Shown here piece after piece: positions 9,951-40,467 of a DNA stretch of 64,000 bases (position 1 is the first letter of the stretch; each line of letters begins with the position of its first letter). Source of the DNA: Candidatus Desulfovibrio trichonymphae (GTDB taxonomy: Bacteria; Desulfobacterota; Desulfovibrionia; Desulfovibrionales; Desulfovibrionaceae); contig NZ_AP017368.1 of assembly GCF_002355955.1 (NCBI RefSeq), positions 558,001-622,000 on the forward strand. The letters are read 5' to 3'. The notes beneath the pieces were generated by a model. It was not told the DNA's origin. It worked only from the letters and a program-made list of their open reading frames with translations, and ran no database searches. The translations under genes were made by a program, and so were the position numbers.

Positions 9951-10034
9951 ATTCTGAAATTTCTCCGTGGTTATGGAGACGTTCTGAGCCGCGTCATTCA
10001 CAAACCTAATCAACGCACGATTGAGGAGGCCGCC

Positions 10035-10928
10035 ATGAAGCGGTTATTTCCGCGCATTTTTCTGCTGTTTCTCAGTATAGCGCTTGCTGCGACTGTTCGT
10101 CCCGCCGAAGCTGTTGACGCCCCGAAAGAAGGGATATTGCTTGCGGCCTTCGGCACCACTGTGCCCGAGGCCATGAGCGTCTATACAGATATTGAGCAAA
10201 CATTTAAGGCCGAATTTCCGGGCTCGTCTGTGGAATGGGCCTATACCTCGCAGATTATCCGCCGCAAGCTTGAAAAACAGGGCCGTCCCGTGGGTGGCGT
10301 CAGCGACGGGCTGGCCGCGCTGGCCGCGCGGGGTGTGAAAGTTGTGCGTGTGCAGTCGTTGCACATCATGGCCGGCGAGGAATTTGCGGAACTTGCGCGC
10401 GCCGTGCTTATTGACGTGCAAAAAAATCCCGGCCGTTTTAACGCCGTATATCTGGGCAGACCCCTCCTTGAATCCCGTCAGGACGCGCTGGAAGCAGCCG
10501 CGGCTCTGGTTGGGGACACAAAGAAAGCGGGCGGCGAAGCGCTGGTGTTCATGGGACACGGGCAGAGCCAAGGCAGGGCGGATTTGGTTTTTGAAGGCGT
10601 GCGTGCTGTGTTCAGGGAAATTGATCCGCGTTTCTTTATGGCCACAGCGGAGGGTGCACGGAATTTTGACCGCCTTCTGCGCGACCTCAAGTCCGGCAAG
10701 GTTCGCCGCGTACGGCTGCAGGCACTGATGCTTGTGGCCGGAGAGCACGCCCGCAATGATCTGGCCGGAGATGAAAAGGATTCCTGGGCGTCCAGGCTCA
10801 AAGCAGTCGGTTTTCAGATAAAGGCCGATTTGCGCGGCCTTGGAGAAATGGACGGCATACGCAGTATTTTTGTGCGCCACGCCAAAGAAAGCGGCGACGA
10901 TCTGACGAAGGAGCCGAAAAAACAATAG
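10035..10928 (+). CDS. cbiK: Periplasmic sirohydrochlorin cobaltochelatase CbiK (CbiKP type)
   Basis: 297 residues; the first ~25 (MKRLFPRIFLLFLSIALAA) form a signal peptide, so the enzyme is exported, as for the D. vulgaris CbiKP form. The mature part has the class II chelatase motifs LLAAFGTTVPEAM, VVRVQSLHIMAGEEF, EALVFMGHGQSQGRAD and LQALMLVAGEHARNDLAG; the His residues in GHG and GEHA are the likely metal ligands. The family inserts Co2+ (also Fe2+) into sirohydrochlorin; the periplasmic form is thought to serve metal or haem handling. GAGGAGG precedes the ATG at 10035; a longer frame back to 9912 overlaps the riboswitch and is not used. First gene of a five-gene operon. Confidence 0.92.
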   Translation: MKRLFPRIFLLFLSIALAATVRPAEAVDAPKEGILLAAFGTTVPEAMSVYTDIEQTFKAEFPGSSVEWAYTSQIIRRKLEKQGRPVGGVSDGLAALAARGVKVVRVQSLHIMAGEEFAELARAVLIDVQKNPGRFNAVYLGRPLLESRQDALEAAAALVGDTKKAGGEALVFMGHGQSQGRADLVFEGVRAVFREIDPRFFMATAEGARNFDRLLRDLKSGKVRRVRLQALMLVAGEHARNDLAGDEKDSWASRLKAVGFQIKADLRGLGEMDGIRSIFVRHAKESGDDLTKEPKKQ

Positions 10929-12002
10929 ATGTCAATTAAAAAACTGCCGCTCATACATAACACGACGCCAGCCGTAAGGCGACATACGCCCGTTCTTGTC
11001 TTTTTGGCCGGGATATGGCTCTGCTCGCTGCCGGTGGCCTGTCTTTCCGGCCCCGTGCCCATAAGCGCGGCGGATGTGTTTTTGGCTCTGGCAGCTCGTC
11101 TTGGCCTTGCAGATGCCCCGGCGGAAGCGGCGAACCTGCTTGTGGTGGGCGACATACGTCTAGCGCGTGTTGTCATGGCGGCATTGTGCGGCGGCGCTCT
11201 TTCCACGGCCGGCGTTACATTGCAGGGCGTTTTGAGAAATCCCTTGGCGGATCCCTTTACGCTGGGCATTTCCGCAGGCGCGGCTTGCGGAGCGAGCATG
11301 GTAATCGCGTTTGGCGGCGCGATTGTGCATACCGGCATCTCTGCTTTCTCACAGGCCGGCCTTGTTGCGCCCGCCGCCCTCACAGGAGCGCTGCTGGCGC
11401 TGTTCGGTGCGCTCTGCCTTGGTGCCGGGGGGGAGGAAGCGTTGCGCCGCGAACGCGTCGTGCTTGCCGGCATTGCCGTCTCCGCGTTTCTGGGGGCACT
11501 GGTGGCGCTCGTCAAAGCGCTGAATGAAGAATCCGTCACCAGCATTGTTTTCTGGATTCTGGGTTCGCTGCAGGGCCGCGGATGGGACAGTCTGCCAATG
11601 CTGCTCTGCACGCTGCTGCCCGGATTCGCACTGGTGTGCATAAATTGGAGAAAGCTCGATGTGCTCTGCCTTGGCGATGATACGGCAGCCCATCTAGGAA
11701 TTTCTGTGGGAAGCGCCCGTTTCTGGCTTTTGGCCGGCGCCGGCTGCATGAGCGCCGGTTGTGTGGCTGTGGCGGGGGTCATCGCTTTTGTAGGACTGGT
11801 TGTCCCGCACATACTGCGTCTTGTGCTGGGGGCCGGGCACGGCCCGCTGCTCACTGGCGCTTTTTTCGGCGGCGGTCTTATGCTTGTATGGGCCGACGCG
11901 CTGGCCCGCAACCTGCCGGGCGGCGGACAGGAATTGCCTGTCGGCGTCGTCACTGCCCTGTTGGGTGGACCGTTTTTCGCTCTGCTGGTGGGCAGACGCT
12001 GA
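10929..12002 (+). CDS. FecCD/BtuC family ABC transporter permease (corrinoid, haem or siderophore)
   Basis: 357 residues with about ten hydrophobic segments and the family motifs RLARVVMAALCGGALSTAG, GVTLQGVLRNPLADPFTLGISAGAACGA, WILGSLQGRGWDSL and FVGLVVPHILRLVLG. It directly follows cbiK with no gap, and its stop overlaps the ATPase start (TGATG). Family members import cobalamin, haem or ferric siderophores. The B12 riboswitch and the corrin genes on both sides favour a corrinoid or tetrapyrrole substrate, which is inference. Confidence 0.92.
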   Translation: MSIKKLPLIHNTTPAVRRHTPVLVFLAGIWLCSLPVACLSGPVPISAADVFLALAARLGLADAPAEAANLLVVGDIRLARVVMAALCGGALSTAGVTLQGVLRNPLADPFTLGISAGAACGASMVIAFGGAIVHTGISAFSQAGLVAPAALTGALLALFGALCLGAGGEEALRRERVVLAGIAVSAFLGALVALVKALNEESVTSIVFWILGSLQGRGWDSLPMLLCTLLPGFALVCINWRKLDVLCLGDDTAAHLGISVGSARFWLLAGAGCMSAGCVAVAGVIAFVGLVVPHILRLVLGAGHGPLLTGAFFGGGLMLVWADALARNLPGGGQELPVGVVTALLGGPFFALLVGRR

Positions 12003-12868
12003 TGCTGCGTGTGCGTGACCTCACAGCATGGTATGGCGAACGGCTTGTGCTGCGCGGTTTGAGTTTTGACATAGGTGCCGGCGAATGCGTGGCCTTGCTC
12101 GGGCAAAACGGCAGCGGCAAAACTACGCTCCTGCGGGTGATTTCTGGCGTGCTGCGGCACACGGGCGGTGCGATCTCGCTGCAGGGCACTCCCCTGCAGA
12201 ATATTAAGCCGCGTTTACGCGCGCGACTTTGTGCGGTTGTGCCGCAACGCGAAGAAATTCCTCCAGGACTGACGGCGCGCGAAATGGCGCTGCTTGGCCG
12301 CTACACCTGGCTTTCCTGGCTCGGCGTTTACAGCCGTAAAGACTACATTGCGGCTGACGCGGCATTGACGGCCGTTGGAGCTCGTGAATTGAGCGGAAGA
12401 GCCGTCTCCGGACTTTCCGGCGGAGAACGACAGCGGGTTTTACTCGCGCGAGCGTTCGCGCAGGAAAGCCCCCTGCTCATGCTGGACGAACCGGCGACTG
12501 GCCTTGACCCGGCGCACATGACGGAAATTTTTGACCTGCTTGAACGCCGCCGTGCCGCCGGCACCTGTGTGTTCATGGCCGTGCACGACTATAATCTGGC
12601 CGCGCTCTATGCCACGCGCCTGCTTGGCCTGAAAGGCGGCCGTCTGCTGTTTGACGGGCCTGTGGAGGAGATGATGACCGAGGCGAATCTCAACGCATTG
12701 TACAAGGCTCCTTTTTGCGTTATGCCGCATCCGAAATTCGAACTGCCGCAGGCTTTGACGGGAAGGGCCAATGGGCCGTGGAATCATGCTCCCCATCATA
12801 CCCGCAAAGGCGGAAATCCGGCGTCTTTTCAAAACACGACAGAATTCCTCTGGCAAAACAAGGAATGA
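12002..12868 (+). CDS. BtuD/FepC-type ABC transporter ATPase with repeat-derived C-terminal tail
   Basis: 288 residues. Walker A GQNGSGKTT (~36-44), signature LSGGERQRVLLARA (~138), Walker B LLMLDEPATGLDPAH (~159) and the H-loop AVHDYN are all present. The start ATG at 12002 overlaps the permease stop. The ordinary family end is near NLNALYKAPFCVMPHPKFELPQ. The last ~30 residues (from about NHAPHHTRKGGN) are encoded by a palindromic intergenic-type repeat that has run into the gene, replacing its natural stop. The ATPase core is intact, so it probably still works. Confidence 0.9.
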   Translation: MLRVRDLTAWYGERLVLRGLSFDIGAGECVALLGQNGSGKTTLLRVISGVLRHTGGAISLQGTPLQNIKPRLRARLCAVVPQREEIPPGLTAREMALLGRYTWLSWLGVYSRKDYIAADAALTAVGARELSGRAVSGLSGGERQRVLLARAFAQESPLLMLDEPATGLDPAHMTEIFDLLERRRAAGTCVFMAVHDYNLAALYATRLLGLKGGRLLFDGPVEEMMTEANLNALYKAPFCVMPHPKFELPQALTGRANGPWNHAPHHTRKGGNPASFQNTTEFLWQNKE

Positions 12869-12872
12869 CGCT
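12788..12872 (+). repeat. Palindromic repeat element at the 3' end of the ATPase gene
   Basis: CATCATACCCGCAAAGGCGG at one end and GGAATGACG at the other resemble the short mobile repeats with ends like CGTCATACCCGCGAAGGCGGGAATCC found between genes in many proteobacteria. Here the element supplies the last ~28 codons and the stop of the ATPase gene. No second copy was seen in the window. Confidence 0.45.
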
Positions 12873-12920
12873 GCTTGCATGACAACTTTACGGATCGGCA
12901 AAGAGCCTTTAGGAGCAAAA

Positions 12921-13823
12921 ATGAAAAATACTGCAACAGGTCTCGCGTTCCTGTGCCTGCTGCTCAGCCCGTTTATGCCTGTTGCATCAGACGCGGCGCA
13001 CATCACTGACGACACGGGCCGCAGCGTGACGCTGAACACGCCTGTCACACGCGTTATCGCGCTGTACGGCGCTTTTAATGAATTATTGATGGCGATTGGC
13101 GCGGCCGATTGCCTTATCGCCCGCACAGCGGCTGACGCGGAATTTCCGGCCATAGCCCACCTGCAGGCTATCGGCACGCACATGCGCCCCAATGCTGAAC
13201 TGATTGTGGCCCAAAAGCCGGATGTGGTTCTGCAGCTTGCCGGGCGTCAGGAAGCGCTGATGCAGACAGAATCCCTGCGCGCGCTGGGCCTTGATGTGTT
13301 GACTTTTACCATGGAGTCTTTTGAAGACATATTTCGCGTCACCTCCGTCTTGGGAGAACTTGTCGGACGACAGGAGCAGGCAACCGGGCTTGTCGCCGGT
13401 TTTCGCGCGCGACTCGCGACTCTGTACGCGCGCTGTAGTGGGCAAAAACAACCGCGCGTGTTTTATGAAGTGCGTTACCCCAATCTGCTGGCCGCCGGAA
13501 CGTGCGGTATTGTAAATGAAATCATCACTGCTGCCTGCGGGAAAAATGTGATGCGGGAACCAAAAAAACTGGTGCGCTGTAATGAGGAAACCCTGATTCT
13601 GTCTGATCCGGACATCTACATAGTGCAGCAAGGTCCTATGAACCCTGCGCCGCCGCCGCCAGCAGACCGCCCTCACTACAGAGATCTGCGCGCCGTACGC
13701 GCGAGCCGGGTGCTGGCGGCGGATGAAAAACGCTTTGCCAGGCCTGGACCACGCGCCATTGACGCGGCTGAAGAACTGTCGGACAAACTGCTCGCATACC
13801 CGATTCGCCAGAGCAGCCAATAA
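12921..13823 (+). CDS. Periplasmic substrate-binding protein of the corrinoid/iron ABC transporter (BtuF/FecB family)
   Basis: 300 residues beginning with a signal peptide (MKNTATGLAFLCLLLSPF, cleavage near VASDAA). The mature protein opens ITDDTGRSVTLNTPVTRVIA, the type III binding-protein start, followed by KPDVVLQL, TFTMESFEDIFRVTSVLGELVG and a C-terminal lobe with EVRYPNLLAAGTCGIVNEII. AGGAG lies just before the ATG; a longer frame back to 12771 overlaps the ATPase gene and lacks a signal peptide. It is the third transporter part after permease and ATPase. The ligand is not deducible from sequence; a corrinoid or tetrapyrrole is likely from the riboswitch and neighbours. Confidence 0.9.
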   Translation: MKNTATGLAFLCLLLSPFMPVASDAAHITDDTGRSVTLNTPVTRVIALYGAFNELLMAIGAADCLIARTAADAEFPAIAHLQAIGTHMRPNAELIVAQKPDVVLQLAGRQEALMQTESLRALGLDVLTFTMESFEDIFRVTSVLGELVGRQEQATGLVAGFRARLATLYARCSGQKQPRVFYEVRYPNLLAAGTCGIVNEIITAACGKNVMREPKKLVRCNEETLILSDPDIYIVQQGPMNPAPPPPADRPHYRDLRAVRASRVLAADEKRFARPGPRAIDAAEELSDKLLAYPIRQSSQ

Positions 13824-13862
13824 CTGGCTTTCCTCTGAAACTGCCGATACGGACAAAAAATC

Positions 13863-14597
13863 GTGTGCAAACAAAACTCGCTCTCCGGAACTCTCTACGG
13901 CGTGGGCGTTGGGCCCGGCGCTCCGGATCTGCTGACGATCAGGGCAGTGAACGTGCTCGCGAAGGTGGACGCCATTCTTACCGCCGCATCGCCCCTCAAC
14001 GATTATTCAACAGCACTCAACACTGTATGGACCTGGTTGCGACCGGATGTGCAGATCGTGCGTCTGGAATTTCCCATGACGCGACAGACCGATGTATTGC
14101 GGCAGGCATGGCGCGAAGCGGCACGGCGCACACTGGAAACGCTGAATGAAGGGAAGAGTGCAGCTTTTTTAACCATCGGCGACCCGCTCATTTACAGCAC
14201 ATTCGGCTATCTTTTGCGCACGCTCAAAAAAAGCGAGCCACATGTGTCCGTAGAGATAGTGCCCGGCGTCGCCTCATTTCAGGCGGCCGCCGCACGCGCC
14301 GGCACTGTGCTCTGCGAAGGCGGGCAGAGTCTGCGCCTTATATCCGGCACCAACAGTGCGGCAGAACTCACAAAAGAACTGACCGGAGCTGACACGGCCG
14401 TTATTTTAAAAGCCTACCGCAACATAGCGGGGATACATGATGCCCTGCGCGCAAGCTGCCGCGACAAAACCTGCCTTATGGCCTGTCATGTTGAGCAGCC
14501 CGAAGAACGCATTACGCTGGGACTAGATGAAACTGCGGGCACGCCGCCTTATATGTCGTTGATTATAAGCAGAAAGGACGAAGAAGTTCAACAATGA
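13863..14597 (+). CDS. cobI: Precorrin-2 / cobalt-factor II C20-methyltransferase
   Basis: 244 residues starting at GTG 13863. TLYGVGVGPGAPDLLTIRAV is the SAM-binding start of tetrapyrrole methylases; SAAFLTIGDPLIYSTFGYLL and VEIVPGVASFQAAAARAG are the specific CobI/CbiL signatures. It methylates C20 of the corrin precursor using SAM. Because the operon encodes a cobalt chelatase, the substrate is likely cobalt-factor II (CbiL function). Same strand and spacing as the transporter genes, so probably under the B12 riboswitch. The order cbiK, transporter, cobI matches the known desulfovibrio arrangement. Confidence 0.9.
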   Translation: MCKQNSLSGTLYGVGVGPGAPDLLTIRAVNVLAKVDAILTAASPLNDYSTALNTVWTWLRPDVQIVRLEFPMTRQTDVLRQAWREAARRTLETLNEGKSAAFLTIGDPLIYSTFGYLLRTLKKSEPHVSVEIVPGVASFQAAAARAGTVLCEGGQSLRLISGTNSAAELTKELTGADTAVILKAYRNIAGIHDALRASCRDKTCLMACHVEQPEERITLGLDETAGTPPYMSLIISRKDEEVQQ

Positions 14598-14763
14598 TTT
14601 TCAGGTCGTCCTGACGGAGAATGTCGCCGACTATGAAAAATTGACGCATTGATTGAATCTCGCAGAAAACACGACGCCAACATGGCCAAGCCCCTGCCAA
14701 GCAACCAGAAAAATCAATTGGTTAAGCTCAAAGAGTCAGCCTCTTTTCTGTGCATTGTCTATT

Positions 14764-14899
14764 TTGTCCCTGCTCTGTCCCCATTTTTGTATAAAGGGGG
14801 CAGTGAAGCCCCCGACGGGAACTTGCCAGGTATGTCATGCCTGACGAACGTTTGGACGGAACTGATAGCTCCTGGCGAGCTCCTCTTATAAAAATGGGG
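14764..14899. repeat. TGTCCC pair and inverted repeat in a 335-bp gene-free stretch
   Basis: Between cobI and the DUF927 relic (14598-14933) no gene is seen. TGTCCC occurs at 14766-14771 and 14777-14782, and CCCCATTTTT (14779-14788) pairs with AAAAATGGGG (14890-14899). The hexamer is the same one that clusters at 15.65-15.72 and 16.41-16.51 kb, so this may be the left end of the same relic element. Confidence 0.45.
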
Positions 14900-14933
14900 T
14901 GGGCTGAGCGCAAGAAAGGAGCGCGAGCTTTTA

Positions 14934-15644
14934 TTGCGCTATCTTGAGAACATACAGCCGGTGCGGCGTTTTTTGGGAGTCGACCGCACCGGCTGGCATG
15001 ATGCTGCCTTCATCCTACCGGGACAAGTATTTCCTGAGGAGAAGAGCTCTGAAATCATACTCCAGTCGATGCCTTCACGCAACCCTTACACACAAGGAGG
15101 TTCGCTGGAAGGGTGGAAAGAGACGATAGGTACCTGGGCTGAGGGTAACAGCCGGGTTATGCTGGTAATATGCGCGTCATTGGTGGGATCGCTTCTGAGG
15201 CCACTGGGGCAAGAATCAGGCGGTTTTCACCTTTTTGGCACCAGTTCAACGGATAAAACCATTAACGATGGCTTTATTCATGGCGAGCAACTGATAACGG
15301 CCTTGCGTTCGGATACCTTTCTCTGTCTCGATGAAATATCTCAGGCCGAATGGAGGACTTTGCAAATCGTGCAGCGGTTCCAACTCTTCATTGAAAAGCA
15401 CGGCGCAAGCAGGTTTCAGGTTTTGACTCGGGGCGGAGTGATGGGCGAGACCTGTCGAGGCCGTGCAGGATTCCGCTATGAAAATGGGGAGGGCCGGACT
15501 ATTTTTTATTTTCTTGATGAAGTTTTTAAGGAGGTCGGACTTCTTATAAAATACAAGCTGCCTCAAACAGTGGCAGATATTGGGGGGCGTCCAAGACTCT
15601 ATGCAGTATCTATCCCTGATGAAGCGGAGAGTAGGACTACATAA
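14934..15644 (+). pseudogene. DUF927-type phage/plasmid helicase-primase remnant
   Basis: An open frame of 236 codons holds scrambled pieces of a DUF927 replication protein: GWKETIGTWAEGNSRVMLVICASLVGSLLRPL, then HLFGTSSTDKT, LRSDTFLCLDEIS and FRYENGEGRTIFYFLDEVFKEV. In intact members the Walker A is G-x-S-S-T-G-K-T; here the Gly is Asp. The segment between Walker A and the LDE Walker B (normally with W-x-x-T-x-N-A-L-E) is missing, and the protein is far shorter than the usual 500-800 residues. It is thus a dead replication gene of a prophage satellite or integrative plasmid. An iteron cluster begins at its stop. Confidence 0.65.
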
Positions 15645-15750
15645 AAGCGGGACAAGAACCATGACAGGGACACATGGCGGGACAGCGGAAACATAGGCGC
15701 AGCAACGACCCCCCCTTGTCCCGCTAAAAAATAACATATATCTGTATCTC
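15641..15750 (+). repeat. GGGACA iteron cluster, left copy of a ~110-130-bp inverted repeat
   Basis: GGGACA occurs three times in direct orientation (15650, 15667, 15679) and once inverted (TGTCCC, 15717). The block, including GCGCAGCAACGA and TAAAAAATAACATATA, reappears in reverse complement at 16390-16522 with gaps. It starts at the DUF927 stop codon, the usual place for a replication origin next to its initiator gene. Confidence 0.65.
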
Positions 15751-15838
15751 GCCCTTGCTATGTTTTTCGGGTTGTGCTGCGAAAAAAATTAACAGGTGCA
15801 TTCCAAAAATCAGGGAGGGGGAAATTTCTTGGCAGGTT

Positions 15839-16278
15839 TTATTTCCCAGCCTCTTTTTTTATTGTGGCCTTACGCGTTTTTTCATTTTTCAGGTTGTTTA
15901 CAATTTCCTTTGCTGCTTCTTTAAAAACATATTCCCATGCGCCTATTGTAAAGGCACCACCGAAGGCAATAGATCGTTACAAAGGCGTTAGCAGCAAGTT
16001 TTGTTTCACCTGCGCCAGGCATTAGCCAACGCTTGAAAGCGTTTCCAGGTTCATATTTTAGAATATTTACATTTATTATGTAGTTCCCCTGTTCTGAAAA
16101 GGAACTGCGGTTTTTGAGTTCAAACTGTAAGGCATCCCCCATGGCTTGCGCAAGGTCAATCATCCGGCTTGAATTTAAAGCCGGACATATCTTTATTATA
16201 GGAGATTTTTGTAGCACACCCACCAAGCATACCCGCAATCAGAACCATTGACGCCAGAATCGTGCCTAGTTTACACAT
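15839..16278 (-). pseudogene. DUF4410-family lipoprotein, two frameshifts, nested between the inverted repeats
   Basis: The ATG at 16278 follows GGGGAGT and opens MCKLGTILASMVLIAGMLGGC, a lipoprotein signal peptide with lipobox L-G-G-C, then runs to a stop after about 40 codons. A second frame supplies MIDLAQAMGDALQFELKNRS and NVNILKYEPGNAFKRWLMPGAG, the core of DUF4410 proteins. A third gives GAWEYVFKEAAKEIVNNLKN up to the stop at 15839. All three pieces are collinear, so the gene died by small indels. It fills the space between two inverted iteron blocks, apparently as cargo. Confidence 0.65.
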
Positions 16279-16389
16279 GAATACTCCCCTTGTTTTATCA
16301 AGCTGCCCCCGGGTCTGCCAGCAGGGGTACCACCTTCCCTTCTGGTCAGGTTGAACATTTTTCCCCCTTCCCTCTCCCCTTACAAATTT

Positions 16390-16522
16390 AGATACAGGTA
16401 TATGTTATTTTTCACCGGGACAGGCGGGACACCGGGACAGAAAGTGGTTTTTCGTTGCTGCGCTCAGCTATCCGCTGTCCCGTTTTCTTGGCCCGGTCAT
16501 GTCTCTGTCCCGTTTTTTTATG
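16390..16522 (-). repeat. GGGACA iteron cluster, right inverted copy
   Basis: Read on the minus strand, the stretch gives GCGCAGCAACGA and GAAAAATAACATATACCTG as in the left copy. Three GGGACA in plus orientation (about 16417, 16426, 16434) and two TGTCCC (16476, 16506) are present. The two copies face each other around the DUF4410 pseudogene. Confidence 0.65.
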
Positions 16523-16780
16523 GTTTGATATGATACCAAAACTCCAGCATGGTCCCGGATAATGTCACATATGACAAAAAATTATAGGTCGGGAAGATGG
16601 CGGAATTGCTTATACACTATCAGAAAACACGGAGGCCTGTCAAAGCCTGATGCAGAAAGCGCTATTGGAACTCTCACGGCGGTGGCGCTGGTTGCCCATG
16701 CAAGTGATGTCAGACATTTCAACAATGATAAAACAGCTCAAAAATTTAAATGCGTTTGCCTTGGTTCGCGCACGCCTTGT

Positions 16781-17794
16781 TCAAAAGTGGTACAGGAAAA
16801 TCGGTGTGTGCCAGTTCCCTGCCGCAGCGCCGTCAATGTCCAGCCCGAACCAGGCTTTCAGTTTGTCCTTCAGCCAGAAGGTCTTCTTTTTGCGCGCCAA
16901 CAGGTTGCGTTCAAAGGGCACGCCTGTTTGCCTGGCAAGCCAGCGATGGGCGGAATCCTGCCCGCCCAGTTCGTCCTACCAGACCGAGCTGTTTAGCTTC
17001 TCGCCCCGTAAAGATTTTGCCCTTGGCGAGCTACGCCACTTGTTCACGCGGCATGTGCCGCCCCTGTGCCACGATATCGGTAAACTGCGTGTGCATGTCT
17101 GCAAGCACGCCCTCAAAATAGCTTTTTTCTTCGGAAGTCAGCTCCCGCAGATAGGAGCCGGCGTTTTTGTAGGGCATGGTGACAAGCGTTTGCTGCCCTA
17201 TGCCGATTTTATCAAACATGCCCTGCAACTGCGGTATGTCCATGCGCACGCCGATGGAGCCTGTGACTGTGGACGGACTGGCAACACCCTATTCCCGGCC
17301 ATGCTGATCATAAGACCGCCAGACGCGGCAACGGCGCCCATGCTTACAGCCACTGGCCTGCTTTCGGCGAGCTCGGCTAGAGCGGAGTAGACCTCTTGTG
17401 AGGTCGCCGCCCCGCCGCCGGGTGAATCCACCCGCACAAGTACGCCTCCGATGTTCAGGCGGCATTCAATATCGTGTATCCATTGCAATTCGTCGCTGAC
17501 GTCCATGATCGGCCCGCATACCGTGACAAGGGCAAGGCGCTCCCCGCTATTGAGCAGATCACCGCCGTCGTCATTGAGGCTGAACAGGAGTCCTGCGGCA
17601 AGCGCCGTCACAACAGCCGTCGTCCAGAAGATGACGGGATACCGCCTGCGAAATGGCCGCCGAAAAAGATGCCGCCAGACATCGCCCGGAATTTTAGCGA
17701 GCGGACAGGCGCCGGCACAGTTTTCGCGTGAAGCGGGAGCGTCTGTCAGGGCGTCGCCGCGTTTTTTTTCAAAAGAAAACTGATCGGTTGTCAC
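16781..17794 (-). pseudogene. sppA: Signal peptide peptidase SppA (S49 family), broken by several frameshifts and a stop
   Basis: The ATG at 17794 overlaps the acyl-CoA synthetase stop (ATGA). The first frame gives a membrane helix (FWTTAVVTALAAGLLFSLN), VRVDSPGGGAATSQEVYSAL and MGAVAASGGLMISMAGNRV, the S49 nucleophile region. The frame then shifts; RMDIPQLQGMFDKIGIGQQT and KSYFEGVLADMHTQFTDIVA lie in a second frame. After a stop, KGKIFTGREAKQLGLV and WLARQTGVPFERNLL appear in further frames up to 16781. The pieces are collinear and cover the family length of about 330 residues. SppA clears cleaved signal peptides; this copy cannot make an intact protein. 16523-16780 holds nothing recognisable. 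Confidence 0.82.
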
Positions 17795-19467
17795 TGCAAA
17801 GCCTCCGGCCAGTGTTCCGCAGCCAGTTCCCGCAATTTGTATTTTTGAATTTTGCCGCTGGCTGTGAGCGGAAATCTTTCTATTATTGTGATATATTTAG
17901 GAATTTTAAACCAGGATATTTTGCCGCGGCAAAAATCGCGCACATCTTCGGGCAGCACATCCGCTCCTGTACGGGGGATGACAAATGCCCCGACTTCTTC
18001 ACCGTACCTGCGGCTCGGTACGGCCACTACCTGTACGTCCAGCACGCCTTCCATCTGCAACAGAAATTCTTCCACCTCGCGCGGATAGACGTTTTCTCCG
18101 CCGCGGATGATCATGTCCTTGATGCGTCCGGTCACACGCACATAGCCGTGCTTGTCCATAACGCCCAGATCTCCGGAATGCAGCCAGCCTTCCGGGCTGA
18201 TGGTCTTGGCCGTGTCTTCGGGCATTTTATGATAGCCTTTCATGACATTGTAGCCCCGGCAGAGAATTTCACCCACTTCGCCACGGGGCAGTTCCTCACA
18301 TGTGTCCGGGTCGCCTATGCGCACTTCAATGCCGGGCATGGCGCAACCCACAGTTTCGCACCGCAATGTGAGGGGATCACTGATGTCCGACTGCGTCATC
18401 ACCGGCGAGCCTTCTGTCAGTCCGTAACAGATGGTGATTTCTTTCATGTACATGTCTTCCACAACACGGCGCATGAGCGGCTCAGGGCAGACGGAACCGG
18501 ACATGATGCCGGTGCGCAGACTTGAAACGTCAAAGCGTTTGAAAAGCTTGTGTTCAAGCTCGGCCAGAAACATGGTGGGCACACCGTAAAGCGCGGTGCA
18601 GCGTTCGCTGTCCACAGCGATCAGGGCTTTCAGGGGATTGAATGTTTCCAGAATGACCATGGTTGTGCCGTGGTTGACGCATGCCATAACGCCCAGCACA
18701 CAGCCGTAACAGTGAAAAAGCGGTACAGTGAGGCACAGGCGGTCTTTTTCTGTAAAACCCTGATGCCGGCCTATCCAGTAACCGTTCAGACCCACGCCGA
18801 CATGCGTCAGCATGACGCCGCGAGGAAAGCCTGTGGTGCCTGATGTGTATTGCATATTGATCACTTCCCACGGGTCAAGGGAGGCCTGGCGGGCTTTATA
18901 GTCCTCATCGTCGGTCATCACAGACATGGCCAGGATTTCCGGCACGGAATACATGCCACGGTGTTTTTCAGCCCCCAGAAAGCACACCCGTTTCAGATGC
19001 GGCAGCGCTACGCAGCGTATATCTGCGCGCGGCCGCGTGCGCAGTTCCGGGACAATATCATAGAGTGTGGCCAAAAAATCGTGGTCGCGCAGTCCGTCGA
19101 TAATAAAGATATTTTCGCATTCGGAGTGATGCAGCAAATAGCGCAGCTCGTGTTCACGGTAGTTGGTGTTGACCGTCAGCAGAATGGCCCCTATCTTGGC
19201 AGTGGCAAATTGCAGCGTCACCCAGTAGGGCACGTTTGTGGCCCATACAGCCACTTTTTCGCCTTTTTCCACGCCAAGAGCCATCAGCCCTTTGGCAAAC
19301 TGATCCACTATGGCGGCAAATTCCCGCCAGGTTTTTCGGTAGTTGCGGTCAGCGTAAACCACTGCTTCCACATCGGGGAAGCGCTCCACCGTATGGTCGA
19401 GAATCTGCCCCACAGTCCATTCGCGCAGCTCAAACTGCGCCTGACGTTCGCGTACTTTTTTGTCCAT
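17791..19467 (-). CDS. Acyl-CoA synthetase (AMP-forming), FadD-like
   Basis: 558 residues of the ANL adenylating superfamily. The phosphate-binding motif YTSGTTGFPRGVMLTH, the A5 motif CYGLTEGSPV, GWLHSGDLGVMD, GRIKDMIIRGGENVYPREVEEFL and the catalytic C-terminal Lys in PLTASGKIQKYKLRE are all present, at normal length. It activates a carboxylic acid to the acyl-CoA through an acyl-AMP; medium- or long-chain fatty acids are most likely, but the substrate is not readable from sequence. It lies downstream of a cupin-type regulator on the same strand (15-bp gap) and is followed, with overlap, by the dead sppA. Confidence 0.9.
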   Translation of the reverse strand: MDKKVRERQAQFELREWTVGQILDHTVERFPDVEAVVYADRNYRKTWREFAAIVDQFAKGLMALGVEKGEKVAVWATNVPYWVTLQFATAKIGAILLTVNTNYREHELRYLLHHSECENIFIIDGLRDHDFLATLYDIVPELRTRPRADIRCVALPHLKRVCFLGAEKHRGMYSVPEILAMSVMTDDEDYKARQASLDPWEVINMQYTSGTTGFPRGVMLTHVGVGLNGYWIGRHQGFTEKDRLCLTVPLFHCYGCVLGVMACVNHGTTMVILETFNPLKALIAVDSERCTALYGVPTMFLAELEHKLFKRFDVSSLRTGIMSGSVCPEPLMRRVVEDMYMKEITICYGLTEGSPVMTQSDISDPLTLRCETVGCAMPGIEVRIGDPDTCEELPRGEVGEILCRGYNVMKGYHKMPEDTAKTISPEGWLHSGDLGVMDKHGYVRVTGRIKDMIIRGGENVYPREVEEFLLQMEGVLDVQVVAVPSRRYGEEVGAFVIPRTGADVLPEDVRDFCRGKISWFKIPKYITIIERFPLTASGKIQKYKLRELAAEHWPEALQ

Positions 19468-19481
19468 GCCGTTTTCTGTGT

Positions 19482-20051
19482 TCAGGAACTGTAGATGACT
19501 GCCAGAATCTGCGCCGGTTCATTGCTCGCCGCGCCCGCGTAGTGCGGTACTATGGAATTGTAATAAATGGTTTCGCCGGCCCTGAGTATATGCTTTTCAC
19601 GCCCGTAAATCACAAGCATTTCGCCCTCAAGCACCAGCATGAACTCTTCGCCCTGATGGGAAATGAGCTTGTATTCTTCGCCTGCATTGGGGAGCATTGT
19701 GATGAAAAAAGGATCCATGTTGCGGTCGCTCTTGCCCTGGCCGAGGGAGCGGTGCACATACGTCGGGCGCGCCGCATGGCCGGTATGAAGAGCGTTGGCT
19801 TCCTTCCCCTCGCCGATTCTGGAGATGGCGGGATCGCGCGTTTCCTGATCGTCCATAAATGTGCCCAGACGCACACCGAGGGTACGGGCCACTTTTTGCA
19901 GCGGACCAAGACTCGGGTAAATTTCGCCGTTTTCCAGCTTGTCAAGAAATTCAACGCTAAGCCCCGTGTTGTCTGCCAGATCAGACAAACCGATGCCGCG
20001 TTCCTGCCTGAAAGAGCGTATTCTCGCGCCAATGCCGGATTCAGTAGACAT
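19482..20051 (-). CDS. XRE-family transcriptional regulator with C-terminal cupin domain
   Basis: 189 residues. Residues ~6-65 form a Cro/C1-type HTH (IGARIRSFRQERGIGLSDLA, then LSVEFLDKLENGEIYPSLGPL) and ~110-185 a cupin barrel (KLISHQGEEFMLVLEGEMLV, LRAGETIYYNSIVPHYAGAA). The start at 20051 follows CAGGAG; upstream in-frame codons lack coding character. HTH-cupin proteins sense a small ligand and control nearby operons, so it probably controls the acyl-CoA synthetase gene 15 bp downstream. The pairing with AMP-binding synthetases is common in deltaproteobacteria. Confidence 0.88.
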   Translation of the reverse strand: MSTESGIGARIRSFRQERGIGLSDLADNTGLSVEFLDKLENGEIYPSLGPLQKVARTLGVRLGTFMDDQETRDPAISRIGEGKEANALHTGHAARPTYVHRSLGQGKSDRNMDPFFITMLPNAGEEYKLISHQGEEFMLVLEGEMLVIYGREKHILRAGETIYYNSIVPHYAGAASNEPAQILAVIYSS

Positions 20052-20277
20052 ACACAGGCTCCTGGTTTGCACTGCGGGTTGACTGGTTAAATTATAGATC
20101 GGCACAATAGCGAAAAGTTGATTTCCCCGCAAGCCTACTGCAGCGCCTTCACCTTTTTTAGCGAAATAACAATATACCAAAATGGTTATATATAACAATT
20201 ATTAATTATTGTCTTTTCTTTGTTTGGCCTGCACGGCATTTTGTGTTAATAACGCCGGAAACCACACCGGAGGCGGC

Positions 20278-21555
20278 ATGTCGGATATGAAGGCCATCTA
20301 CAGCACTGTTCATAAAGATGCTTTTCCCGAGACAATGACCATTTTGCTCGGGGAAGAAAAACTTGTTTATAAAAAGCGCGTCTGGACGATTGATAACGAA
20401 GAAAAAGGCCTCCGTTACGGCGAAAATCCCGATCAGCCGGCCGCGCTCTATGCCCTGCGGGATGGTGCGATCACCTGCGGCGGGCTTGCCTGGCGCGGGC
20501 CTGAACACGGCATTGTCTCTGTGCTTACCGAAGCGCAGATAATTCAGGCGGGCAAGCATCCGGGAAAGATAAACCTCACGGATGTGGACAACGGCGTCAA
20601 CATACTCCAGTATCTTGCAGAACGCCCGGCCGCGCTTGTTTTGAAGCACAACAATCCCTGCGGCGCCGCCTGGACTGAGAAGGGCGTGGCGTGTGCGCTC
20701 ACGCGTGCCGTCATGTGCGACCGCATTGCCGCTTTCGGAGGCGCGGTAGTCGTGAACCGGCCGTTCAGCCGTGAGGCGGCGGAAATTGTAGCTTCAGCGT
20801 ATTTTGAAGTGGTGGCCGCGCCTGCCTTTGAAGAAGGCGTGGTACAGATTCTGAAAAGCCGTAAAAATCTGCGCATTATGGAGCTTCCCGGTCTTGCGCG
20901 TCTTGAGGAACTGACGCGTTCTGCGTTTCTGGATGTCAAAAGTCTCTCTGACGGCGGCATTATTTTGCAGAAATCTTTTGTCAGCCGCATTCGCGCCGCT
21001 GAGGACTTTTTGCCCGCCAAGGCGACCACGCGGGAAGGCCTTGCCGTTACGGCGCGCCGCCCCGCAAAAATGGAGCTGGACGATTTGCGTTTTGCCTGGG
21101 CCGTGGAGGCGGGTGTCACGTCCAATTCCGTTATTTTTGTCCGCAACGGGGCCACGCTGGCCATCGGCACCGGTGAACAGGATCGTGTAGGCTGCGTGGA
21201 ACTGGCTATCCACAAGGCGTATACAAAATATGCCGATGCGCTGGCGTTCAGAGAACTTGGGCTTTCTCTCTACGAACTCAAACAAAGGGCTGCCGAGGAT
21301 CCGGCTATGCAGGAAAAACTGGCGGATATTGAGCGCCGCACGCGTGGATCCCGCGCTGGTCTTGCCGGTTCAGCTCTGATTTCCGACGGCTTTTTCCCCT
21401 TCCGTGACGGGGTAGATGTGGCTGTATGCGAAGGAGTTTCGGCCATTGCCCAGCCGGGCGGCTCGCTGCGCGACGCGGAAGTGATTATGGCTTGCAATGA
21501 GGCAAAGCCACAGGTGGCGATGCTGTTTACAGGTCAGCGCTCGTTCAGACATTAG
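20278..21555 (+). CDS. purH: AICAR formyltransferase (PurH without IMP cyclohydrolase domain)
   Basis: 425 residues matching only the formyltransferase half of bifunctional PurH. Motifs include LRYGENPDQPAALYA, the catalytic LVLKHNNPCGAA, RIAAFGGAVVVNRPF, GVTSNSVIFVRNGATLAIGTGEQDRV and SALISDGFFPFRDGVDVA. The N-terminal MGS-like IMP cyclohydrolase domain (~200 residues) is absent, so ring closure to IMP must come from another gene. The ATG at 20278 follows GGAGGCGGC; an earlier in-frame ATG at 20209 has no such site. cbiA starts 8 bp after its stop. Confidence 0.92.
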   Translation: MSDMKAIYSTVHKDAFPETMTILLGEEKLVYKKRVWTIDNEEKGLRYGENPDQPAALYALRDGAITCGGLAWRGPEHGIVSVLTEAQIIQAGKHPGKINLTDVDNGVNILQYLAERPAALVLKHNNPCGAAWTEKGVACALTRAVMCDRIAAFGGAVVVNRPFSREAAEIVASAYFEVVAAPAFEEGVVQILKSRKNLRIMELPGLARLEELTRSAFLDVKSLSDGGIILQKSFVSRIRAAEDFLPAKATTREGLAVTARRPAKMELDDLRFAWAVEAGVTSNSVIFVRNGATLAIGTGEQDRVGCVELAIHKAYTKYADALAFRELGLSLYELKQRAAEDPAMQEKLADIERRTRGSRAGLAGSALISDGFFPFRDGVDVAVCEGVSAIAQPGGSLRDAEVIMACNEAKPQVAMLFTGQRSFRH

Positions 21556-21563
21556 TCGGCGTT

Positions 21564-23084
21564 ATGTTGACAGATTGTGGTCTTTCCGGCGTGAACACAC
21601 CCGCGGTCACAGCGCGGGTGTGCGTCTCCGCGCTTTCCGGCGGCGGCGGCAAAACTCTATTTTCTCTGGGGCTGGCGCGTGCGTTGACGCAGATTGGCCA
21701 GACAGTCAAACCCTTCAAGAAAGGGCCGGATTATATTGACGCGGCTTGGCTTGCACTGGCGGCAGGGCAACCGGTGACCAATTTGGATCCTTATTTTCTG
21801 TCGCCCGCGCGTCTGCGCGATCTTTTTGTTCACGCCGTCACACAGGCAAAAGCCGTCGAAAAATCCGGAAAAACAGTGCTTGGGCTTGTGGAAGGCAACA
21901 GGGGGCTGTATGACGGTCTGGACACGGCAGGCTCCTGTTCTACGGCGGCTCTGGCCCGCGCTCTTAATTGTCCCATACTGCTCAGCCTTAACTGCACCAA
22001 GATGACCCGCACGGCAGCGGCCCTCGTCCAGGGCGTGTGTAATTTTGAGCCTGGGCTCACGTTCTGCGGCCTTGTGATCAGCCATGTGGGTTCTGCCCGG
22101 CATGAAACCGTTCTGCGCCGGGCGCTAGAATATTATACGGATATGCCCGTGCTGGGCGCTTTGCCGCGTCTTTCTGAAAATCCTCTGCCTGAACGGCGCA
22201 TGGGCATAGCCAGCTTTGGCGAGCGCCTGTCCGCAACGGCGGAAAACGCGCTTGCCGTGCTGGCGTCTTTTGTGCGCGAGCATGTGGATGTTGCCGCTGT
22301 GCTTGCCGCGGCTCACTGTGCGCCGGCGTTGAGGGAAGAAATGCCCTTTTGGCGGGAAGATGCAGCGCGCTGCCTGAGCGTCACTTCTGGAGATGACGGA
22401 GACAAGCTGGCGACAAGGCGGACGCCGCTCTGCAAACCGCGTATAGGCTATGTGCACGATGAGGCACTGTGGTTTTATTATCAGGAAAATTTGGATGCCC
22501 TCTCCCTGTCAGGCGCAGAATTGACGCGCCTTTCATTGCTTGACGGCGCGGCGTGGCCGCGACTGGACGGTCTGTATCTGGGCGGCGGCTTTCCGGAAGA
22601 CATGGCCGCCGAACTGAGCGTTTCGCCTCATCTGTCAATGCTCGTTGCGCTTGCGCAAAGTGGCGTGCCCGTCTATGCGGAATGTGGCGGTTTTATGCTG
22701 CTGGCGCGCGGCATTGAGCGGGATGGCCGCTTGTGGAAGATGAGCGGCGTTTTTCCTGTGACAGCCCGTTTTTGCGAAAAACCGCAAGGGCTTGGTTATG
22801 TGAGCGCCAGAGTGGTGCGGGAAAATCCTTGGTTTCCTGTGGGGCTTGCGTTGCGCGGGCACGAATTTCATTATTCCCGCTGTGAATGGACGGGAGAAGC
22901 TCCTTCATGCGTTTTTTTACTTGAGCAGGGAACGGGCATGGGGGCAATCGGGGGCACGTTTCATGACGGCCTTGCGCATAACAATGTCTTTGCCGCATAC
23001 ACGCATATTTTTGCGCCGTCCGTGCCCTGCTGGGCTCACAATTTTACACGTATGGCCCTCAATTGTCAGCGTGAACAACTCTAA
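21564..23084 (+). CDS. cbiA: Cobyrinate a,c-diamide synthase family protein (CbiA, or DsrN-type sirohaem amidase)
   Basis: 506 residues: an N-terminal dethiobiotin-synthetase-like ATPase domain with P-loop SALSGGGGKTLFSLGLARAL and KPFKKGPDYIDAAW, EGNRGLYDGLD, and a C-terminal class I glutaminase-like domain with LYLGGGFPEDMAAEL, the nucleophile Cys in VPVYAECGGFMLLARG and RGHEFHYSRCEW. The family amidates the a and c carboxylates of cobyrinate with glutamine and ATP. In sulfate reducers a close relative, DsrN, amidates sirohaem for sulfite reductase, and sequence alone does not separate them. No dsr genes are in the window and corrin genes are present, so CbiA is slightly favoured. Probably co-transcribed with purH. 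Confidence 0.87.
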   Translation: MLTDCGLSGVNTPAVTARVCVSALSGGGGKTLFSLGLARALTQIGQTVKPFKKGPDYIDAAWLALAAGQPVTNLDPYFLSPARLRDLFVHAVTQAKAVEKSGKTVLGLVEGNRGLYDGLDTAGSCSTAALARALNCPILLSLNCTKMTRTAAALVQGVCNFEPGLTFCGLVISHVGSARHETVLRRALEYYTDMPVLGALPRLSENPLPERRMGIASFGERLSATAENALAVLASFVREHVDVAAVLAAAHCAPALREEMPFWREDAARCLSVTSGDDGDKLATRRTPLCKPRIGYVHDEALWFYYQENLDALSLSGAELTRLSLLDGAAWPRLDGLYLGGGFPEDMAAELSVSPHLSMLVALAQSGVPVYAECGGFMLLARGIERDGRLWKMSGVFPVTARFCEKPQGLGYVSARVVRENPWFPVGLALRGHEFHYSRCEWTGEAPSCVFLLEQGTGMGAIGGTFHDGLAHNNVFAAYTHIFAPSVPCWAHNFTRMALNCQREQL

Positions 23085-37663: not shown

Positions 37664-38002
37664 ATGTGGTCATGGCAAGGACAAATTCTCCCGCGCGGAT
37701 TTGATCCGATTGATTCTCATCGTCTGCGTGGCGGAGCTCGATTTGCCTATGCAATCAACGAGTATATCAGCCCTTATATCGGTGCGGCCTTCGAATATGA
37801 ATTTGACGGCAAGGCAAGAGCGTCTGTATGGGGCTATGATCTCAAGGCTGCGAAGTTCGAAGGAGAAACGGGCATTGGTGAAGCGGGTTTGGTTTTTAAA
37901 CCTTCCAGCAAATCTCCGTGGCTCGTTGATCTCGGCGTGCAGGGCTATGTCGGCAAACGCGAAGGCGTGAGCGGTTCCCTCCGCGTGGGACTGGAATTCT
38001 AG
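37664..38002 (+). pseudogene. Autotransporter beta-barrel C-terminal fragment
   Basis: RLRGGARFAYAINEYISPYI, GAAFEYEFDGKARASV, GEAGLVFKPSSKSPWLVDLG and the C-terminal strand SGSLRVGLEF ending in Phe are the last ~100 residues of an autotransporter outer-membrane barrel. The passenger domain, signal peptide and most of the barrel are missing, and the ATG at 37664 has no ribosome site. It is the tail of a lost surface protein. Confidence 0.7.
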
Positions 38003-38034
38003 AATGGTTAGCATAACTGTCGGCAACCGGAAAA

Positions 38035-38070
38035 CAAAAAAAGGCTTATAGTGTTATCTATAAGCCTTTA
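38035..38070 (-). terminator. Terminator of tRNA-Gly
   Basis: AAAGGCTTATAG and CTATAAGCCTTT pair as a 12-bp stem and are followed on the minus strand by a run of T. It lies directly behind the 3' end of tRNA-Gly and can also stop transcription from the other side. Confidence 0.75.
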
Positions 38071-38077
38071 ATTTTCT

Positions 38078-38152
38078 TGGAGCGGGAAACGGGATTCGAA
38101 CCCGCAACTTTCAGCTTGGGAAGCTGACACTCTGCCGTTGAGCTATTCCCGC
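38078..38152 (-). tRNA. tRNA-Gly(CCC)
   Basis: A 75-nt cloverleaf with acceptor GCGGGAA/TTCCCGC, D-arm GCTCAACGGCAGAGT, anticodon stem TCAGC/GCTGA around loop TTCCCAA (anticodon CCC), T-arm GCGGGTTCGAATCCCGT and encoded CCA. Confidence 0.95.
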
Positions 38153-38363
38153 GACAGTGGATGCAAGAGCCTGTTCCGGTCAAATTCTGTAGCATGTTTA
38201 AGCTGTCCTACCGTTTTTGACAAGGATAAAATTCCGATCCCACGGCAAACCGGGCAGTTGCCACGCTGTGCGGACGCGACAGGGGCATGCAGACGCTCTC
38301 CCCCACTATTTATCACGATACCCTGTGCAAGCAGCCATTCGGTAACAGACGTCACCTAAATCC

Positions 38364-38390
38364 TTGACTCGGAGGGGCGGGGTCTATATC
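38364..38390 (+). promoter_or_regulatory. Promoter-like element upstream of tRNA-Arg
   Basis: TTGACT (38364-38369) and TATATC (38385-38390), 15 bases apart, about 65 bp before tRNA-Arg. It is a member of the TTGACTCGG... family seen at 9.7, 30.1 and 50.5 kb, and the best placed to act as a real promoter. Confidence 0.5.
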
Positions 38391-38455
38391 TGCACTGACT
38401 CCCGCGGCTACCGCGCTTGACAGCGCACAGTGCAAGGCATATTCAAACGAAATCT

Positions 38456-38532
<77 letters not shown>

Positions 38533-38625
38533 AATAATTCCTGGCGTAGTATTCCTTAGACTGCTCCTTTTTTGTCAACAATACCTCAGATTGTTTGTGT
38601 AAATACAAGCCCTCGGCCGAGTACC

Positions 38626-38842
38626 TCAGGCGGAAGAACCTACAAGTGACATATAGTCCCGCGGACTCAAGAGATGTGACCTGTCTGCACCGGGTTCCAG
38701 TTCAATCTGCAGCATCCAGCCTTCTCTGTAAGGATCTATGTTAATCAAGGAGGGTTCCGCTGACAACACCGCTGTCTTGCATTCGCAGCCAGGTGTGCTC
38801 CGGGTGATACAGGAGGTCGTCTGGAAAGTTGAGTTCACTCAC
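38626..38842 (-). pseudogene. gcvH: Glycine cleavage system H protein, central part deleted
   Basis: From GTG 38842 the frame gives VSELNFPDDLLYHPEHTWLR, the GcvH N-terminus, up to MQDSGVV. It then shifts to SAEPSLINIDPYREGWMLQI and the C-terminal LLSPRDYMSLV. About 70 central residues are gone, including the lipoylated Lys in the E-S-V-K-A loop. GcvH carries the aminomethyl group between glycine cleavage enzymes; without the lipoyl Lys it cannot work. The intact lpdA (its usual partner) is about 200 bp upstream on the same strand. Confidence 0.8.
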
Positions 38843-39045
38843 GGTAATCCCCTTTTTGACAGCCATAGGAGTCTGGTGAAAAAGTCTATTACGGACTCTT
38901 TCACTTCAGGTTCGAAAAAATAGTGTTGCCTGTCTTCCAAAATAATTTGCACTTTTCAAGTTTGCCGCATTGCGGTTGGCTATTTTGATATATCTGGTTT
39001 TATTTTCAGACGAATAGGCACAAGTGAACTCTCAGCTAAAGCGTT

Positions 39046-40467
39046 TTAGCCTCGCAACCAAGCTTTGGCGGCTTCATAGAGCCCTTCAGCAAGCGTCGGA
39101 TGAGCATGCATGGTATTGGCCAATTGTGCGACGCTGAGACTGCTTTTCATGGCCAGTGCTGCTTCGGCGATAATATCCGTGGCATGCGCGCCTGCTATGT
39201 GCGCACCAAGGATTCTGCCGCTGCTCTCCTCACAGACGAGCTTAAACAAGCCCGGCAGTTCGCCCATGGCATGGGCTTTGCCCAGTTCGCGAAACTGGAA
39301 AAGGCTTGAGCGGACAGCCATTCCTTGTTTTTTAGCCTCTGCTTCTGAAAGTCCCACAGTGCCGATTTCCGGCGAGGTAAAAATGCCGGAAGGTATCACG
39401 CTGTAATCAAGTCTCTCTTCTCGGCCGAAGCAGTTGGCTACCGCGCACTCACCTTCGAAAGAAGCCACATGAGCCAGCATAGCACGCGCGGGACCGAGCG
39501 CGTCTCCAATTGCGTAGACGCCGTCAGCAGATGTGCGCATCCAGCCGTCAGCCATTATCCAGCCCTGTCTGTCAGTTGCCACCCCTGCTTCTTTCAGCTT
39601 CAACCCTGCCGTATTAGAAGAACGCCCCACAGTAACCAGTACTACATCCGTTTCAATGACCTCTTCCTGACCACCAGCACTCTCCACAAAAGGTGATGCA
39701 GATAAAATACAGGCTACCTTGCTGCCGGACAGTTCCGCGCTTTTCACTATCCTGGCGAGCTCTACACGGATGCCGCGCTTTTTGGCCTCACGTTGCAACA
39801 GCCGGCTTACCTCTTCATCTATGGAAGGGAGCGGGAGCAAACGGTTCAGACCTTCCACCACAGTCACTTTCACGCCAAAAGCCCGAAAAATAAAGGCCAG
39901 TTCGCAGCCGATGACTCCACCACCTGCGATGAGCATACGCGTTGGAAGCTGTTCGAGATGAAGCGCGTCATCGCTGTCGATGATGTACCGATGATCTATT
40001 GAAAGAGAGGGTAAAGTCATGATTTTTGAACCGGTGGCGATAATCACGGCATCGGCGCACAGTTTTTCCACGCCCTGTCCGGTATACACCAACACTTTGC
40101 GGTCGGGTGCGAGTTCAGCCTGCCCGTGCAGCAGCTTGATCTTGAGACCGGTGCACGTTTTTTCCAACCCACCACGAAGTATTTTGCACACACGTTCCTT
40201 GCGGGCCACGATGGATGGCATATCCGCCCGGAATGATGCCGAATGAGCGCCATCGTTGGAGACAAGACCGAATTCCGCCAGACCCCCGGCTGTTTCCAGT
40301 GCATCGGCAGAGGCTTTGATGGTTTTAGTGGGAATACAACCGGAATTGAGACAGGTTCCCCCGAGTTCCGCCTTTTCCACCAAGGTAACGGAAGCTCCGC
40401 GCCTTGCCGCGTCAAAGGCAGCGGCATAACCGCCTGGGCCAGCACCTATAATTGTAATGTCGTGCAT
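39046..40467 (-). CDS. lpdA: Dihydrolipoyl dehydrogenase
   Basis: 473 residues: FAD motif ITIIGAGPGGYAAAFDAARRG, redox pair in GGTCLNSGCIPTKTI (C-x4-C), NAD motif MLIAGGGVIGCELAFIFRAF, YAIGDALGPARAMLAH, and the C-terminal dimer base HAHPTLAEGLYEAAK with the active-site His. It reoxidises dihydrolipoyl groups of glycine cleavage or 2-oxoacid dehydrogenase complexes. AAGGA lies 7 bases before ATG 40467; an in-frame ATG at 40473 is too close to it. Intact although the adjacent gcvH is dead, so it may serve another lipoyl protein or be next to decay. Confidence 0.93.
   Translation of the reverse strand: MHDITIIGAGPGGYAAAFDAARRGASVTLVEKAELGGTCLNSGCIPTKTIKASADALETAGGLAEFGLVSNDGAHSASFRADMPSIVARKERVCKILRGGLEKTCTGLKIKLLHGQAELAPDRKVLVYTGQGVEKLCADAVIIATGSKIMTLPSLSIDHRYIIDSDDALHLEQLPTRMLIAGGGVIGCELAFIFRAFGVKVTVVEGLNRLLPLPSIDEEVSRLLQREAKKRGIRVELARIVKSAELSGSKVACILSASPFVESAGGQEEVIETDVVLVTVGRSSNTAGLKLKEAGVATDRQGWIMADGWMRTSADGVYAIGDALGPARAMLAHVASFEGECAVANCFGREERLDYSVIPSGIFTSPEIGTVGLSEAEAKKQGMAVRSSLFQFRELGKAHAMGELPGLFKLVCEESSGRILGAHIAGAHATDIIAEAALAMKSSLSVAQLANTMHAHPTLAEGLYEAAKAWLRG

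Follow-up and report, generated by a model that had tools for sequence, protein, structure and literature searches.

A replication-helicase gene in ruins, crowded by copies of the hexamer GGGACA (TGTCCC on the opposite strand), raises the question of what kind of element left such a combination in the genome of 'Candidatus Desulfovibrio trichonymphae', and whether the repeats once served as its replication origin. The genome of strain Rs-N31 has a size of 1.4 Mb, and every CRISPR-Cas and restriction-modification system in it is pseudogenized (PMC7608387). The host genome analysed here is a single contig of 1,410,056 bp, from which a stretch of 64,000 nucleotides (the window) was taken; the positions given below are those of the window. 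The features of the locus are listed in Table 1.

Table 1 Features of the island and its surroundings (window positions; a dot stands for no assigned strand).
Feature	Position	Strand	Basis and remarks
Strain-specific island, ~2.1 kb	14583–16676	.	flanking genes: cobalamin-type methyltransferase on one side, disrupted sppA-like gene on the other
DUF927 replication-helicase pseudogene	14625–15644	+	tblastn with L048, L053 and L057 proteins; Pfam for the open part
Still-open part of the DUF927 pseudogene, 236 codons	14934–15644	+	ORF list, Pfam
Two TGTCCC	14765–14781	-	inside the pseudogene; aligned coding region 14625–15362
Copy A, origin-like iteron array	15645–15749	.	CGGGACA-type repeats at 15648, 15666, 15678 (+) and 15717 (-); AT-rich stretch after
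DUF4410 (putative lipoprotein) gene remnant	15921–16280	-	ORF 15921–16238 matches PF14366, E=2e-8; between arrays A and B
Copy B, origin-like iteron array	16390–16522	.	inverted relative to A; repeats at 16416, 16425, 16433 (+)
Copy B, minus-strand repeats	16476, 16489 (one mismatch), 16506	-	AT-rich on both sides

The window contains 35 copies of GGGACA/TGTCCC where 24 are expected. Twelve were found within 1760 bp from position 14765, while 200 dinucleotide shuffles gave at most six per 1760 bp, and the densest 150 bp held five copies compared to a shuffle maximum of three. The clustering noticed in a preliminary description of this DNA is therefore real. Its statement that the hexamer is not spread over the rest of the window holds for density, but single copies and loose pairs do occur outside the island. 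A scan of the whole contig for the triple GGGACAN{1,5}GGGACAN{1,5}GGGACA revealed a single match, at 16417-16439 in copy B, where the reversed control pattern gave none; thus, shuffles and genome search agree that the hexamer is not equally dense elsewhere. Another hexamer, TTCGAA, has six of its seven copies in the window inside 1.76 kb (37790-39550).

Comparison with the closest genome, G085, defined the borders of the island. Window positions 12000-14582 and 16677-20000 match G085 at 93-94% DNA identity and the proteins of the flanking genes are 91% and 85% identical, but in between G085 has 163 bp in place of the ~2.1 kb, showing that the island is strain-specific. Since these 163 bp are unrelated to the island, the comparison fits an insertion in the window genome and a loss in G085 equally. 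The G+C content of the island is 0.43-0.51, that of the flanks 0.56-0.58. The sppA-like gene next to it (17198-17794), which is disrupted in the window, lies within a 371-codon open frame in G085. None of the 78 other genomes of the genus has a homologue of the DUF4410 relic, which was probably cargo of the element. At the island itself, neither an integrase nor an att repeat, as expected of a PICI or another satellite, could be recognised, and a tblastn search with the proteins of 39 relative loci revealed no relaxase, as expected of an integrative mobilizable element. There is no tRNA gene within 10000-22000, and phage records contained no DNA relatives of the island. A 12-bp perfect direct repeat (TTCAACAATGAT) lies near both island ends, at 14587-14598 and 16718-16729; it was considered as an att site and rejected because it does not fit the island borders, and is probably due to chance.

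The still-open reading frame matches Pfam DUF927 (PF06048) with E=6e-24 (85.6 bits, gathering cut-off 22.6) over profile positions 95-206 of 284. Alignment to intact relatives showed that the pseudogene starts further upstream, near 14625, without a change of frame but interrupted by stops, so that the dead gene recognised before is confirmed in its identity and extended by this analysis. The Walker A motif is degenerate (SSTDKT for SSTGKT), ~190 amino acids of the ATPase core are deleted, leaving no intact core in the alignment, and the C-terminal domain is shortened. The in-frame stops, the degenerate motif and the core deletion demonstrate that the gene is dead. A primase-polymerase domain was not found in the pseudogene by tblastn with the proteins of L048, L053 and L057. 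Since the pseudogene starts near 14625, the TGTCCC pair as well as a GGGACA at 15020 read as decayed coding sequence, and the pair is probably not an iteron cluster. Accordingly, two of the three clusters reported before, copies A and B, are real, the first one being part of the gene; and the helicase gene is not bracketed by the hexamer, as had been thought, since both arrays lie 3' of it.

Copies A and B are inverted versions of one ~110-bp array and ~85% identical. Two segments carry the similarity (15711-15749 and 16390-16428 with 87% identity, 15678-15708 and 16452-16482 with 84% identity), and the likeness extends to sequence outside the hexamers. A genome-wide search revealed no third copy. 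The first repeat of copy A starts 4 nt past the stop codon of the pseudogene, and copy A thus has the position that is characteristic of SaPI/PICI-type origins, immediately 3' of the initiator gene. Repeats in both orientations and AT-rich edges are thus present, though spread over two separated copies, where PICIs have two iteron sets around an AT-rich region. When aligned to the origin of L048, the closest homologue among the family genomes searched, in which the AT-rich parts lie outside the repeats, copy B scored 35 (shuffled maximum 25) and copy A 31, which is borderline given a shuffled maximum of 30.

Next to intact genes the arrangement is conserved. Searching 288 genomes of the family revealed a DUF927 match in 76, the window's genome included, and 39 stretches were fetched, 37 because of their DUF927 match and two (L055 and L056) because of a GGGACA array. 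Eight intact DUF927 genes of Desulfovibrionaceae (L048-L054 and L075) have symmetric GGGACA arrays which lie 0-35 nt 3' of the gene or overlap its end; other DUF927 genes have dense arrays of GGTGACA, GGTTACA, GGCGACA, TCCGACA etc. at the same position. The expectation voiced earlier, that relatives would carry the same iterons downstream, is therefore borne out directly behind or across the gene end, with the restriction that many use a different repeat. One of the TCCGACA arrays is found in G085 (L066:8192-13400), as two direct copies of ~120-130 bp each, together with an intact-looking DUF927 gene and an integrase near tRNA-Ser.

Palindromes right behind stop codons often terminate transcription. 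The arrays could, therefore, serve the helicase operon as terminators or regulatory hairpins and not be an origin, and the L048 array, a near-perfect inverted repeat between A/T runs ~30 nt past the stop codon, looks the part. However, most arrays comprise 9-13 short repeats across ~200 bp and not one hairpin, the same position is occupied by wholly different repeat sequences, and four DUF927 genes (L049, L050, L051 and L075) include the array in their coding 3' end, observations which together make a role in termination very unlikely. In these four genes the array is translated as GDTGDT- or VPSVP-like tails.

Almost all relatives carry a single array, two inverted copies being unusual. This leaves little of the earlier comparison with phage P4 and its two iteron regions. 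P4 has the primase-helicase alpha and an origin with short repeats (ori, crr), and to that extent it resembles the system described here, but the relatives of the window normally have one array, which is located directly 3' of the helicase gene. The alpha protein and its cognate ori are named in PMC6092414.

Two histories can be written for the second array. Copies A and B each have all or most of the layout of the L048 origin, three repeats in one orientation followed by three in the other, and they share non-repeat sequence too, as would be left by a duplication of the first array. Alternatively, both could be the iteron sets of one PICI-like origin with an AT-rich core in between, which was split later by a 640-bp insertion carrying DUF4410. 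This variant differs from an origin with a duplicated array only in the history of the second copy; it would account for the inverted orientation of A and B with their AT-rich edges facing each other, and L053 indeed has two mirror-image array halves within 215 bp. Given the complete or nearly complete layout and the shared non-repeat sequence of the copies, we regard a split origin as possible but the less probable course of events.

What the intact element may have looked like can be read from the relatives. L048, which is located in genome G188, encodes a protein with a Prim-Pol domain fused to DUF927. The element has a size of 7.48 kb, carries a tyrosine integrase gene upstream of the helicase gene and is bounded on both sides by a 49-bp tRNA-Asn repeat; no structural genes were recognised in it. 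Just beyond its left tRNA-Asn repeat lies a gene for an AAA_25 helicase (L048:2-2167), possibly part of a second, adjoining element. Likewise, 48-bp tRNA repeats enclose the islands of L049 and L065, each with a DUF927 gene, an array and an integrase homologue. Of the 39 fetched stretches, 30 contain an integrase homologue, and the integrase and att sites for which a search around intact homologues had been suggested are thus present there. MobV relaxase homologues are encoded in seven of the 39; in L053 (11154-12338), as well as in L063 and L065, the array is followed directly by the gene of a MobV (Mob_Pre) relaxase, which gives these apparently mobilizable elements a PICI-like origin arrangement.

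These relatives also bear on the question of whether the island is what remains of a full prophage and not of a satellite or mobilizable element. Viral contigs do bear DUF927 genes with 3' arrays, and GGGACA arrays adjoin primase-helicases on them; but the island yielded no remnant of a capsid, tail or terminase gene, structural genes likewise went unrecognised in the 7.5-kb element of the closest intact homologue, L048, and other relatives carry a MobV relaxase. A prophage is, therefore, an improbable source. Taken together, the island is very probably what is left of a small integrative mobile element with a DUF927 helicase and a GGGACA origin 3' of its gene; the remains are compatible with a phage satellite, an integrative mobilizable element or, less probably, a prophage. 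The product of its replication gene was a DUF927 helicase to which, as in L048, a primase-polymerase was probably fused. By analogy to known initiators, this protein would bind the GGGACA repeats immediately behind its gene, melt the neighbouring AT-rich DNA, load itself as helicase and unwind the excised circular element for replication. In the reduced genome the element has lost its integrase and primase, and the helicase its ATPase core. A portion of the helicase gene is left, together with the origin array in two inverted copies, the second of which may have arisen by duplication of the first, and the relic of a probable lipoprotein cargo. The heavily reduced 1.41-Mb genome of this group thus took up replicating mobile elements, and their kind is now identified.

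The unit of helicase gene and origin has well-described counterparts. In SaPIs, the iterons that Rep recognises follow its gene directly (PMC7581432), and PICIs have their origin 3' of rep, an AT-rich region between two sets of iterons; a Gram-negative pri-rep-ori supported plasmid maintenance (PMC6092414). With these rep-ori systems (SaPIbov1 Rep, EcCICFT073 pri-rep-ori) the window shares the initiator helicase gene, the iteron origin immediately 3' of it, short repeats in both orientations and AT-rich DNA. In contrast, the window holds a fossil with two inverted array copies, some of its relatives carry a MobV relaxase, and it gives no sign of helper-phage induction or packaging. The DUF927 protein Cch of SCCmec is related to SaPIbov1 Rep, and the binding site of Cch2, a set of direct repeats, lies downstream of its gene (PMC7581432). 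Thus, Cch shares the DUF927 domain and Cch2 the location of its site with the system described here, but the repeats have another sequence, Cch2 does not belong to DUF927, and the relatives of the window have a fused primase domain. Passages of PMC5862659 describe primases fused to interchangeable helicase domains (DUF927, DUF3987, VirE/VapE, RepA) in mobile elements; these are the same helicase domains, and several types adjoin GGGACA arrays, but 3' iteron arrays are not described in these passages. The island is, therefore, one more instance of the known SaPI/PICI-type helicase-origin unit. Accordingly, the preliminary description of the locus as an undescribed satellite or integrative plasmid stands as far as the mobile-element fossil is concerned, whereas "undescribed" applies to this instance only, as the unit itself has been reported for SaPIs and PICIs (PMC6092414, PMC7581432). 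Among literature titles, none on such elements paired GGGACA with a phage replication origin or TGTCCC with an iteron.

To see how general the arrangement is, viral contigs were scanned for GGGACA triples, with 120 loci listed for the hexamer and 120 for its reversal. Among the matches listed, symmetric arrays were found at 37 of 120 loci compared to 3 of 120 for the reversed hexamer (Fisher p ~1e-9). A primase-helicase was encoded within 600 nt of 41 of 120 GGGACA triples and 3 of 120 reversed ones among the matches listed (Fisher p ~4e-11), the reference helicases for this count being drawn from the tested loci themselves. The helicases beside GGGACA arrays belong to several families (DUF927, VapE, AAA_25 and DUF3987). 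Because of the origin of the reference helicases, a second census was started from DUF927 proteins alone, with 60 shuffles per region and gene-internal regions as control. Indeed, 44 of 57 distinct 3' regions of viral DUF927 genes contained a repeat array above all 60 shuffles, but only 5 of 57 controls did. GGGACA was used by only one of the 57, and the idea of GGGACA as a universal origin code was rejected. Judged from these sequences, the constant of DUF927 loci is the position of the array and not the letters of its repeat. We consider it rather likely that DUF927 replicons in general, those of relaxase-bearing integrative elements and of viral contigs outside PICIs among them, combine an initiator helicase gene with a private iteron array directly 3' of it, and that, with the repeat differing from element to element, origin and repeat can be read from the sequence. 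The origins of many uncharacterised small replicons would then be predictable. A shared domain for reading GGGACA was also considered and rejected, as hhalign detected no homology between the C-terminal regions of DUF927, AAA_25 and VapE helicases located beside GGGACA arrays (probability <1%). As to the idea that the choice of repeat is set by the C-terminal domain, this domain is more similar in pairs with the same repeat (46% vs 38%), and the ATPase core rises equally (59% vs 51%).
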